In this document: positions 56,021 to 62,187 of the stretch, piece by piece
Layout: every line of letters begins with the position of its first letter
Numbering within the stretch: the first letter of the stretch is position 1
Source of the DNA: an uncultured Candidatus Hydrogenedens sp.
GTDB lineage: Bacteria; Desulfobacterota_D; UBA1144
Length of the DNA: 64,000 nucleotides
Direction of reading: 5' to 3'
NCBI GenBank assembly: GCA_902609885.1
Contig: CACLTT010000004.1
Location: forward strand, 1 to 64,000
The notes under the pieces: model-generated
What the model was told of the DNA's origin: nothing
Seen by the model: only the letters and a program-made list of their open reading frames with translations
Database searches by the model: none
Made by a program: the position numbers and the translations under genes

Positions 56021-56338
56021 TTGCAACTTATTCATTTAAATAATCTATATTCAACTTTTCCTAACTATATTATGGGAGGAGGAGAAGAATTTAGAGAGTT
56101 CGAAGAGGAAATTCTTGATGATCTTGAAGAAGAGATTGATTATGATGATGACATTTGGGGAGAGAATGAAGATTCAAATGATGAAATTGAAGAGGACTAT
56201 AGTGAAGACGAAGATGAAGACGAGGGTGAGTTTGACGACTTAGAAGAAATTGATGATTTTGAAGAGCTAGATGACCTAGATGATTTAGATGACTTTGAGG
56301 AAGAAGGTGAAGACGAGGATCAATTTGAGGAAGAATAA
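56021..56338 (+). CDS. extremely acidic low-complexity protein, unknown
   Basis: GGAGGT (56009-56014) 6 nt before TTG 56021; D/E-rich ...EEEILDDLEEEIDYDDDIWGENEDSNDEIEEDYSEDEDEDEGEFDDLEEIDDFEELDDLDDLDDFEEEGEDEDQFEEE. Confidence 0.6.
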   Translation: MQLIHLNNLYSTFPNYIMGGGEEFREFEEEILDDLEEEIDYDDDIWGENEDSNDEIEEDYSEDEDEDEGEFDDLEEIDDFEELDDLDDLDDFEEEGEDEDQFEEE

Positions 56339-59816: not shown

Positions 59817-61136
59817 ATGAATTTTCTTCAGAGTTTTGAAGAGTTTTATGAATCTGCGGCCAAACACCTTGATATACCTAAGGGTTTATCCGATCAAATT
59901 AAATCATGTGACTCTGTTTATCATCTTAGATTTCCAATAACCCTTGATAACGGTGAGATAGAAGTAATAGACGCTTGGCATGGTGAACATAGCCATCATA
60001 GAAGCCCATTAAAAGGTGGAATTAGATATAGTAGTTTGGTTAATGAAGATGAAGTTAAAGTACTAGCCAGTTTAATGACCTTTAAATGTGCGCTTGTAAA
60101 TGTACCTTTTGGTGGTGGAAAAGGAGGTATTAAAGTAGATTCAAAAAACTATACGGACAATGAGCTTGAAAAAATTACTAGAAGGTATACTTTTGAACTT
60201 TTTTCTAGAAATTCTTTAGGACCAAATACTTATGTACCATCAACTGATTATGGAACAACATCCAGGGAAATGAATTGGATATATAGTACATTTAAAACTT
60301 TATCTAATTCCAATATCGATTCAGCTGCATCTGTTACATCAAAGAGCGTTACCCAGGAAGGTGTGAATGGTAGAACTGAAGCAACTGGCAGAGGAGTTTA
60401 CATTGGAATTAGAGAGTTATTAAGTGATGAAAGAGAAATTTCTAGAGCTGGTCTTAAATCAGGTATTGAAGGAAAAAGAATTATTGTTCAAGGCTTTGGA
60501 AATGTTGGATATCATGCCGCTTTATTTTTATACGAGGCTGGCGCTATTATTACGGGAGTTTGCGAATACAATGGCTCAATATATAACGATAAAGGTATAA
60601 ACCCTTCAGAGCTTAAAGAATGGCTTAAGGAAGGAAATAAAATTCATGATTTTGAGACATGTGAAACATCTGAAGACCCTTGGTTTGCATTTTACAAAGA
60701 GTGTGACATTTTAATTCCTGCAGCACTTGAGGAAGTAATTAATGCAACAAACATGTATAAGATTAAAGCAAAAATAATTGCAGAGGGTGCTAATGGCCCT
60801 GTAACCTTTGAGGCAGATAAATATTTAACTAATAGTGGTGTAATAGTCTTGCCTGATCTTTATTTAAATTCTGGAGGTGTCATTGTTTCTTATTTTGAAT
60901 GGTTAAAAAATTTAAATCATGTCAGATGGGGAAGAATCGAAAATCAGGGAAATAATAATTTAAAGGAAATTGATTTGATAAATAATGCATTAAATGAAAC
61001 TATGACTCAGGCTTTTGGGGAATTATCAGAGAAAAGAAATTCTACGGGGAAATACATTTCATATCGCCAAGCGGCTTATAGATTAGGCATTGAGAAGATA
61101 GCCAATACCTACATTGAGATGGGTCTTTTCCCATAA
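59817..61136 (+). CDS. Glu/Leu/Phe/Val dehydrogenase (glutamate dehydrogenase)
   Basis: HRSPLKGGIRYSSLVNEDEVKVLASLMTFKCALVNVPFGGGKGGI; IIVQGFGNVGYHAALFLYEAGA; AEGANGPVTFEADKYL. Confidence 0.94.
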   Translation: MNFLQSFEEFYESAAKHLDIPKGLSDQIKSCDSVYHLRFPITLDNGEIEVIDAWHGEHSHHRSPLKGGIRYSSLVNEDEVKVLASLMTFKCALVNVPFGGGKGGIKVDSKNYTDNELEKITRRYTFELFSRNSLGPNTYVPSTDYGTTSREMNWIYSTFKTLSNSNIDSAASVTSKSVTQEGVNGRTEATGRGVYIGIRELLSDEREISRAGLKSGIEGKRIIVQGFGNVGYHAALFLYEAGAIITGVCEYNGSIYNDKGINPSELKEWLKEGNKIHDFETCETSEDPWFAFYKECDILIPAALEEVINATNMYKIKAKIIAEGANGPVTFEADKYLTNSGVIVLPDLYLNSGGVIVSYFEWLKNLNHVRWGRIENQGNNNLKEIDLINNALNETMTQAFGELSEKRNSTGKYISYRQAAYRLGIEKIANTYIEMGLFP

Positions 61137-61148
61137 GTTTCTTAGTTA

Positions 61149-61751
61149 ATGCAAGTCAATGATATATTAATTATAATAAGCGTTTGCTTTTTAGGCGCAA
61201 TTACTCCAGGACCTAGCTTATTAATTATTTCAGGAATTGCAATAAATAAAGGAAGAAAAGAAGCTATTAAAGCTTGTATTGGCCATGCTCTAGGAATTTG
61301 CTTTTATGCTTTTATCGTTGTAACGGGACTAGCAATTTTAATTGAAGAATTTAATAAAATTTTTATATTAGTTCAAAAAATAGGATGTATTTTTATTATT
61401 TATTTAGGAGTAATATTTCTAAATTCTAGTGGTGATTTAGAAAATACAAACAAAACTATGCGCGTAAATAGTTTTGTTTCAGGATTAACAATAGCAATTC
61501 TCAATCCAAAAGTGATTATTTTTTTTAGTTCAATATTTAGCCAATTTATAAATAATAATACAACTTTGGAAAAAATTATTATTTTTACTTCCATAGCAAC
61601 TTTAATAGATTTTATTGTATATTCGTTGATAGTAATTTTTATAACATTTGCTGTAAAATCGAAAACAATTTTCGAAAACCTGAAACAAATTAACAAATTT
61701 TCAAGTTGTACATTAATAATGTTAGGGATTATTTTATTTATAATTGTCTAA
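61149..61751 (+). CDS. LysE/RhtB-family exporter
   Basis: CFLGAITPGPSLLIISGIAINKGRKEAIKACIGHALG; ILNPKVIIFFSSIFSQF. Confidence 0.9.
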   Translation: MQVNDILIIISVCFLGAITPGPSLLIISGIAINKGRKEAIKACIGHALGICFYAFIVVTGLAILIEEFNKIFILVQKIGCIFIIYLGVIFLNSSGDLENTNKTMRVNSFVSGLTIAILNPKVIIFFSSIFSQFINNNTTLEKIIIFTSIATLIDFIVYSLIVIFITFAVKSKTIFENLKQINKFSSCTLIMLGIILFIIV

Positions 61752-61782
61752 AAAAAGACCCCTTGGTGTTTAACCAAGGGGG
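61750..61782 (-). terminator. Rho-independent terminator for the 46-aa ORF
   Basis: Minus strand ACCAAGGGG stem region: CCCCTTGGT-gttta-ACCAAGGGG 9-bp perfect stem, followed on the minus strand by TCTTTTTT. Confidence 0.85.
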
Positions 61783-61788
61783 TTATGA

Positions 61789-61929
61789 CTAACTCATAGT
61801 TAGCATTAATCTAGTGAACAGAAGTTTCTGCATTTTTGCTCTTTTAACTTTTTGAAAAGCTTTTAGAGCAGAATTATGCACGTTTGTTACAACACGACCT
61901 CTGCTAGATTTTTGAACAGTCTTCAACAT
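61789..61929 (-). CDS. small highly basic ORF, 46 aa, unknown
   Basis: MLKTVQKSSRGRVVTNVHNSALKAFQKVKRAKMQKLLFTRLMLTMS; GGAGGT SD 7 nt upstream; terminator 6 nt downstream; predicted promoter upstream; no D/E residues. Confidence 0.75.
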   Translation of the reverse strand: MLKTVQKSSRGRVVTNVHNSALKAFQKVKRAKMQKLLFTRLMLTMS

Positions 61930-61953
61930 ATCAAATACCTCCAATAAGATATT

Positions 61954-62053
61954 TGAACTTTTGACGCATGTTCAATGCGAGTCTTTTAATCCATGACTTA
62001 TGGAGGGCTTTTGACTCATGCCCTATGAGGGTCTTTATAGCCATGACCCATGG
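61954..62053 (-). repeat. four contiguous 25-nt repeats, predicted tandem pseudoknot array in the 5' UTR of the 46-aa ORF
   Basis: Exact 25-nt period; each unit has NCAU-N5-AUGN plus 7-nt A-rich linker plus N5 complementary to the loop (GGGUC/GACCC, AGGGC/GCCCU, AAGUC/GACUC, UGAAC/GUUCA). Confidence 0.8.
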
Positions 62054-62060
62054 TTCTTTT

Positions 62061-62090
62061 AATATACCAGATTTATAGAATAATTATCAA
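62061..62090 (-). promoter_or_regulatory. predicted sigma70 promoter of the repeat leader
   Basis: Minus strand TTGATA (62085-62090), N18, TATATT (62061-62066); start site expected near 62054, the first base before the array. Confidence 0.6.
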
Positions 62091-62115: not shown

Positions 62116-62187
62116 AGGCGGTGCCCGGATTCGAACCGGGGTATAACGGTTTTGCAGACCGTCGCCTTACCGCTTGGCTACACCGCC
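62116..62187 (-). tRNA. tRNA-Cys(GCA)
   Basis: Reverse complement GGCGGTGTAGCCAAGCGGTAAGGC...CGGTCTGCAAAACCG...GGTTCGAATCC...CACCGCCT. Confidence 0.94.

Follow-up and report, generated by a model that had tools for sequence, protein, structure and literature searches.

Among described RNAs, the glutamine-II riboswitch (Downstream-peptide RNA, RF01704) is a leader of marine short-protein genes that contains a pseudoknot and acts as an ON switch near the start codon in response to a nitrogen signal (PMC6698751, PMC2864571). The glutamine-I riboswitch (glnA RNA, RF01739) is encountered in the context of gltB, PII and ammonium transporter genes, and tandem copies are known. The STAXI motif (RF01728) is a pseudoknot found in two or three tandem copies (PMC2864571), and the gltD motif (SRC-18-1) is a riboswitch candidate located 5' of a glutamate synthase gene, with a hairpin covering the ribosome-binding site and glutamine as its proposed ligand (PMC8632094). 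In cyanobacteria, glutamine riboswitches activate small-protein genes, including that of IF17, a glutamine synthetase (GS) inactivator (PMC6316151, PMC6698751).

The array of pseudoknots described here precedes a microprotein gene in a 64,000-nucleotide stretch from an uncultured Candidatus Hydrogenedens sp. (the window; positions 1 to 64,000 of contig CACLTT010000004.1, assembly GCA_902609885.1). It differs from these RNAs in several respects. The glutamine-II riboswitch is a single aptamer of about 60 nt with another conserved sequence (CGUUCA..), and the RF01704 covariance model does not match the arrays. The glutamine-I riboswitch forms a three-way junction with no pseudoknot chain; the RF01739 model gives no match to the window array even at E 10, and its matches in SAR86 lie behind the array, not within it. 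The array shares with STAXI the architecture of a tandemly repeated pseudoknot. However, STAXI is found in Enterobacteriales, near DNA-handling genes, and carries UUCG tetraloops, and its covariance model (RF01728) does not match the arrays. The gltD motif, compared from its published description only, differs in occurring in Selenomonadales and Veillonellales, always 5' of gltD and, as described, in single copy.

No match to the array was obtained in Rfam 15 at gathering or permissive thresholds (a published set of 224 RNA candidates being covered only through Rfam 15), and a literature search returned no description of a chained-pseudoknot array. In this comparison, in which the gltD motif was represented by its published description, the array stands as a previously undescribed class of cis-acting regulatory RNA, unusual for its chained fold. 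Our preferred reading, to which we assign a probability of roughly 0.55, is that it is a translational riboswitch-like leader of a new class, an ON switch for nitrogen-status genes. If it is indeed a riboswitch, its fold of chained pseudoknots would make it the first of its class.

The microprotein locus and its pseudoknot array

The array lies on the minus strand (62054-61955) and consists of four H-type units of exactly 25 nt each, arranged head to tail with zero spacer. All follow the same layout: a first stem (S1, 4-5 bp) of the form NNCAT/ATGNN and a second stem (S2, 4 bp) in which the last four bases of the loop are complementary to the four located immediately 3' of an A-rich linker (L3) of about six nt, close to TNAAAA. 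Unit 1 (62030..62054) combines a 4-bp S1, CCAT/ATGG, whose outer pair is A.C, with the S2 GGTC/GACC. The corresponding stems are CTCAT/ATGAG and GGGC/GCCC in unit 2 (62005..62029), TCCAT/ATGGA and AGTC/GACT in unit 3 (61980..62004), and CGCAT/ATGCG and GAAC/GTTC in unit 4 (61955..61979), where S2 can be extended to TTGAAC/GTTCAA. The unit pattern CATNNNNCATGNNTNWAAAG matches four times in the window, against a mean of 0.01 in shuffled sequences, and none of 100 shuffles reaches four. The array goes undetected by Tandem Repeats Finder, since what its units conserve is structure, not sequence. A 37-aa ORF spans the array, but a coding function was ruled out since the 25-nt period is not divisible by 3; by inspection, the relative G003 has a stop in the frame of this ORF.

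The first-pass annotation had placed the array within a short transcription unit, and most of that description stands. A repeat array does end 12 nt 5' of a strong Shine-Dalgarno (SD) sequence on the minus strand: GGAGGT (61937..61942) follows the last S2 strand at this distance. It is followed by the gene of a basic 46-aa microprotein, MLKTVQKSSRGRVVTNVHNSALKAFQKVKRAKMQKLLFTRLMLTMS (61789..61929, minus strand; ATG at 61929, 46 codons, stop ending at 61789). The proposed intrinsic terminator (61759..61781, minus strand) has the announced 9-bp stem and T-tract, but begins 7 nt past the stop rather than 6. The predicted sigma-70 promoter (62061..62090, minus strand) was also located, with TTGATA at 62090-62085, an N18 spacer, an extended TG and TATATT at 62066-62061. 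It matches the consensus at 10 of 12 positions; the region contains five promoter-like sites compared with 2.5 in shuffles, so that the promoter match by itself is poor evidence. By inspection, relatives also carry an A+T-rich, -10-like stretch just 5' of the first unit. The mapped parts give an expected transcript length of about 300 nt, as had been claimed.

A tRNA-Cys gene (62116..62187, minus strand) is the upstream neighbour; it is conserved in the genus and represents context, not a switch component. Absence of the ORF and array from close relatives, which would have refuted the first-pass description, is not observed. The array, the tRNA-Cys gene and the ORF are all in the same place in the five genomes of the genus, and a GC-rich, terminator-like inverted repeat is seen by inspection 3' of the ORF in all five. 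Three to four synonymous and no nonsynonymous differences separate the window ORF from its counterparts in two relatives (G000 against G001 and G002), and this restriction to synonymous changes among three genomes indicates that the ORF is real. Within the genus the array is near-invariant while the microprotein varies in length from 46 to 67 aa, and in G003 a compensatory change affects S2 of unit 2 (GGGC/GCCC to GAGC/GCTC). A Glu/Leu/Phe/Val dehydrogenase gene (window 59817-61136, plus strand) lies near the microprotein gene, with a LysE-type transporter in between; in the relative G004 the dehydrogenase gene directly adjoins the microprotein gene. Elsewhere in the window, an ORF beside tRNA-Leu (56021-56338, plus strand) encodes a very acidic, repetitive protein of about 100 aa, rich in Asp and Glu.

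Both helices of the unit covary strongly. Among 85 distinct units, the three variable pairs of S2 are kept in 247 of 255 cases, compared with 102 +/- 8 after shuffling. In an alignment of 20 two-unit sequences, 97.5% of cells are paired and the covariation score is 0.658; shuffling gives 0.139 +/- 0.020, and sliding no more than about 0.10. The S2 helix is independently confirmed by units found without it: a covariance model built with S1 and sequence only was used to find new members, and in their 22 distinct units S1 is paired at 5/5 positions throughout and every S2 is complementary. Their two variable S2 positions are paired in 44 of 44 cases (shuffled 25 +/- 2.5, maximum 34). Among these new units, S1 also takes other forms (CCGAT/ATCGG), and there are loops with one base fewer. 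In the first set, the bases CAT, C, ATG and AAG are invariant in each unit, the invariance of CAT, ATG and AAG being partly imposed by the search pattern. The array shows one feature expected of a riboswitch: a structure in the 5' leaders of related genes that is conserved and supported by covariation.

Distribution and gene context

When about 85,000 species genomes were scanned, 51 loci were obtained, of which 49 were judged real and two (L036 and L049) chance matches. They belong to SAR86 gammaproteobacteria and to the family of the window, whose records are labelled bacterium SP78, NAT430, Deltaproteobacteria TMED58 or Thermodesulfobacteriota. The glutamate synthase (GOGAT) gene gltB is downstream at 26 of the 49 loci, 20 in SAR86 (where two end before the gene) and six in the window's own family. 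The window's own genome has a second array, located 5' of gltB. At 15 loci the downstream gene is torF/Gcw_chp, with amtB in reach at 14 and glnK at one, and microproteins follow the array at the remaining eight. In SAR86, an Rfam glutamine-I riboswitch is found directly behind the torF arrays; none was found in the window's own genome. One SAR86 genome has a match to the IMES-1 RNA (L052:3647-3837, minus strand, 190 bits) about 2.5 kb from its array; IMES-1 is an orphan marine RNA.

Searches with the model detected arrays in 10 of 14 own-family genomes, against none in 47 other genomes (44 from the same class), and in 35 of 199 genomes of the SAR86 order. A third order is also positive (17 of 147 genomes), with arrays 5' of a protein mostly 63-68 aa long. 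Nearly all records of its homologues (25 of 26) come from Pelagibacter phages, and for this reason the third lineage is probably SAR11. Both SAR86 and SAR11 rank among the most abundant marine bacteria. In a sample of 399 genomes drawn across Pseudomonadota, matches were restricted to one SAR86 and one third-order genome.

Arrays are also present in phages. In IMG/VR, arrays of two to four units are present on at least 39 contigs, 5' of proteins of 27-64 aa; a relaxed viral pattern gave many chance matches, which were filtered by the covariance model. A blastn search for the array in INPHARED phages gave nothing beyond one chance-level match. Proteins of 53-65 aa with the conserved tail KEV..ANGT..YVIKKGINKGK, unannotated or labelled hypothetical, are widespread in cultured SAR11 phages and are homologous to the array-associated protein of the third lineage. 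The array is absent 5' of the homologous microprotein genes in all eight cultured pelagiphages checked: HTVC019P, HTVC168P, HTVC008M, HTVC100P, HTVC011P, HTVC027P, Kolga and Eistla (L211-L218). The neighbours of third-lineage and phage arrays are not nitrogen genes.

The array thus belongs to a family that occurs in several lineages of marine bacteria and in many phages and is clearly linked to nitrogen assimilation. This modifies the initial view of the locus as a self-contained oddity, since the array also precedes gltB, torF-amtB, and proteins of other lineages and phages. Occurrence in both phages and hosts, and the proximity of a tRNA gene in the window, might also be expected of a DNA or mobile element, such as a recombination site or a repeat, that merely happens to lie upstream of genes. 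This explanation is very improbable: the array is in sense orientation just 5' of an ORF with an SD at the inspected loci, the compensatory covariation between loop and flank suits a single-stranded RNA fold, and no association with tRNA genes was seen outside this genus.

The Shine-Dalgarno hairpin and a possible ON switch

In the window, the SD lies within an alternative hairpin of 11 bp, TCAAATATCTT/GAGGTATTTGA (61931..61956, minus strand), whose 5' strand overlaps with the 3' strand of the unit 4 S2. The pseudoknot of unit 4 and the hairpin are mutually exclusive because both use this strand, and the predicted stability of the hairpin falls from -10.3 kcal/mol when free to -5.8 kcal/mol when GTTC is captured. 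The same overlap is found, with different sequences, in other genera of the family, at SAR86 gltB, at L137 and in several phages. The energy lost on strand capture exceeds that of shuffled sequences (combined p 2e-7, a value that takes related loci as independent). Such a structure, which cannot coexist with a hairpin covering the SD or start codon and in this resembles an expression platform, is present at many unrelated loci and absent at others. No competition with an SD hairpin was found at own-family gltB or in phages L011, L012 and L015, and the expression platform of own-family gltB may therefore differ. In these gltB leaders (L098, L100 and L032), the start of gltB is mostly 40-55 nt past the array and is preceded by a GAGGTG stretch and a C-rich stretch.

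The exclusion between knot and hairpin suggests an ON switch in which the folded chain releases the SD. The stems of adjoining units can stack, as each unit begins immediately after the previous one with no spacer, and the units may form a continuous rod. The S2 strand of the last unit would double as the base of the hairpin over the SD or start codon. At high nitrogen the chain would be folded, perhaps bound to glutamine, and would capture this strand; the hairpin would then be destabilised, allowing ribosome entry. With the chain unfolded, the SD would remain hidden. For the window locus, capture of 4 nt hardly changes the predicted accessibility of the SD (0.18 to 0.19), which implies that capture must reach about 6 nt (TTGAAC/GTTCAA) or act kinetically. 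On this model, the polarity of the array leader in vivo would be ON. The switch hypothesis is directly testable with short synthetic RNAs. Of the roles first envisaged for the array, that of a leader controlling the peptide is the one that gains support: it is a 5' leader, conserved and cis-acting, in which the last pseudoknot and a hairpin hiding the SD overlap.

A strong fold near the predicted transcription start, together with the several loci that have no SD hairpin, would also be consistent with a stable 5' structure that has no specific ligand and serves to protect the mRNA or to set the level of translation, either constitutively or according to temperature or ions. We regard this as improbable. 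The near-invariance of the units across species exceeds the needs of base pairing, the gene association is restricted to nitrogen genes in two phyla, and the alternative hairpin recurs at many unrelated loci.

Putative nitrogen signal and possible role of the microproteins

The targets of the array would suit a signal that turns genes ON when nitrogen is replete, with GOGAT on the one hand and, in the window, a small basic protein on the other. GOGAT consumes glutamine. Glutamine is a first guess for the ligand because of the association with gltB and amtB and of the adjoining glutamine-I riboswitches, and because the window's own family, in which no glutamine-I riboswitch was found, has the array at gltB. 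This assignment is tentative and, in our estimate, has the odds against it; the position of the array beside a glutamine-I riboswitch in SAR86 suggests that it may sense something else. To our knowledge, nitrogen sensing in such streamlined marine cells is poorly understood. A switch of this kind would place GOGAT, an operon for ammonium transport and several microproteins that have yet to be studied under one signal.

A serious but unlikely alternative is that the chain is a multi-copy platform for a regulatory protein, for example a PII-controlled or other RNA-binding protein, through which translation would be repressed or activated without the involvement of a small molecule. Leaders that bind proteins typically contain short repeated units, as argued for the mini-ykkC and pan motifs (PMC2864571). 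The invariant bases of the unit could be read by a protein, even if their invariance is in part forced by the pattern, and sharing of the leader by different kinds of phages is what a host regulator would lead one to expect. However, no candidate protein was found, and as the element occurs in at least two bacterial phyla and in phages, such a protein would need to be common to all their hosts. A compact pseudoknot with an A-rich linker would suit a small-molecule pocket as well. The peptide itself had also been proposed as the partner of the array, either bound to it as a platform or paired with it as an RNA/peptide antagonist. Neither proposal finds support: the same array is present 5' of gltB and torF-amtB, where there is no peptide, and 5' of more than one family of peptides.

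Indeed, at least two peptide families with no significant mutual similarity follow the array. In family A, which has an ALRxYQK core, the window protein groups with phage peptides (p 0.001). In family B (ILxxFSxxKxARxN), where an NGTSGYVIK tail is frequent, the SAR11-like protein groups with other phage peptides (p 0.001); two further types, that of L137 and L195 and that of L170, are isolated. Comparison of array-associated peptides with Pfam, NCBIfam, PHROGs and PDB gave weak matches only and no convincing relative of those compared.

Under the preferred reading of the array as a nitrogen-responsive ON switch, the microprotein might restrain GS, a possibility that we hold loosely. GlnE adenylyltransferase is the usual GS inactivator. 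Full-length GlnE was not found in the window's own family (G000-G012), where only partial matches of 20-28 bits were obtained, although it is present in sister families (E 1e-42 to 1e-55). The family thus appears to lack GlnE. The window's own genome keeps the GS and PII genes, and it is this combination that makes a GS-restraining microprotein plausible. Against this reading, two genera of the family have neither GlnE nor array matches. The small proteins IF7 and IF17 (gifA/gifB) offer a parallel: cyanobacterial cells inactivate GS by the binding of such proteins, and IF17 is under a glutamine riboswitch (PMC6316151). The likeness of the microprotein to IF17 is one of analogy, not membership. 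In shuffle tests against an Acaryochloris DUF4278/IF17-like protein and an IF7 sequence, the microproteins showed no significant similarity (p 0.11-0.99), and homology was rejected.

Phages carry the same leader with microproteins of their own. It is conceivable, if speculative, that the 25-nt pseudoknot is the unit of a new class of riboswitch, unusually small, whose signal would be a nitrogen compound (glutamine, or even ammonium), and that chaining two to four units into a stacked rod steepens the response. Marine bacteria would use it for GOGAT and for a microprotein that lowers GS activity, and several kinds of phages would have captured both the switch and the microprotein to control host nitrogen assimilation during infection. 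If the array is a riboswitch, this would provide a clue to the presence, in many marine phages, of short basic proteins encoded 3' of a leader that the hosts use for nitrogen genes.

With regard to GS itself, the tyrosine of the adenylylation site (DIYELSEKE) seems to be retained in the enzyme of the window's own genome. A sigma-54-like site, TGGCATACTTATTGCC, is located upstream of the glnB-glnA pair encoding PII and GS (L221; G000:C4:133800-137200), whereas the array leaders have sigma-70-like promoters.
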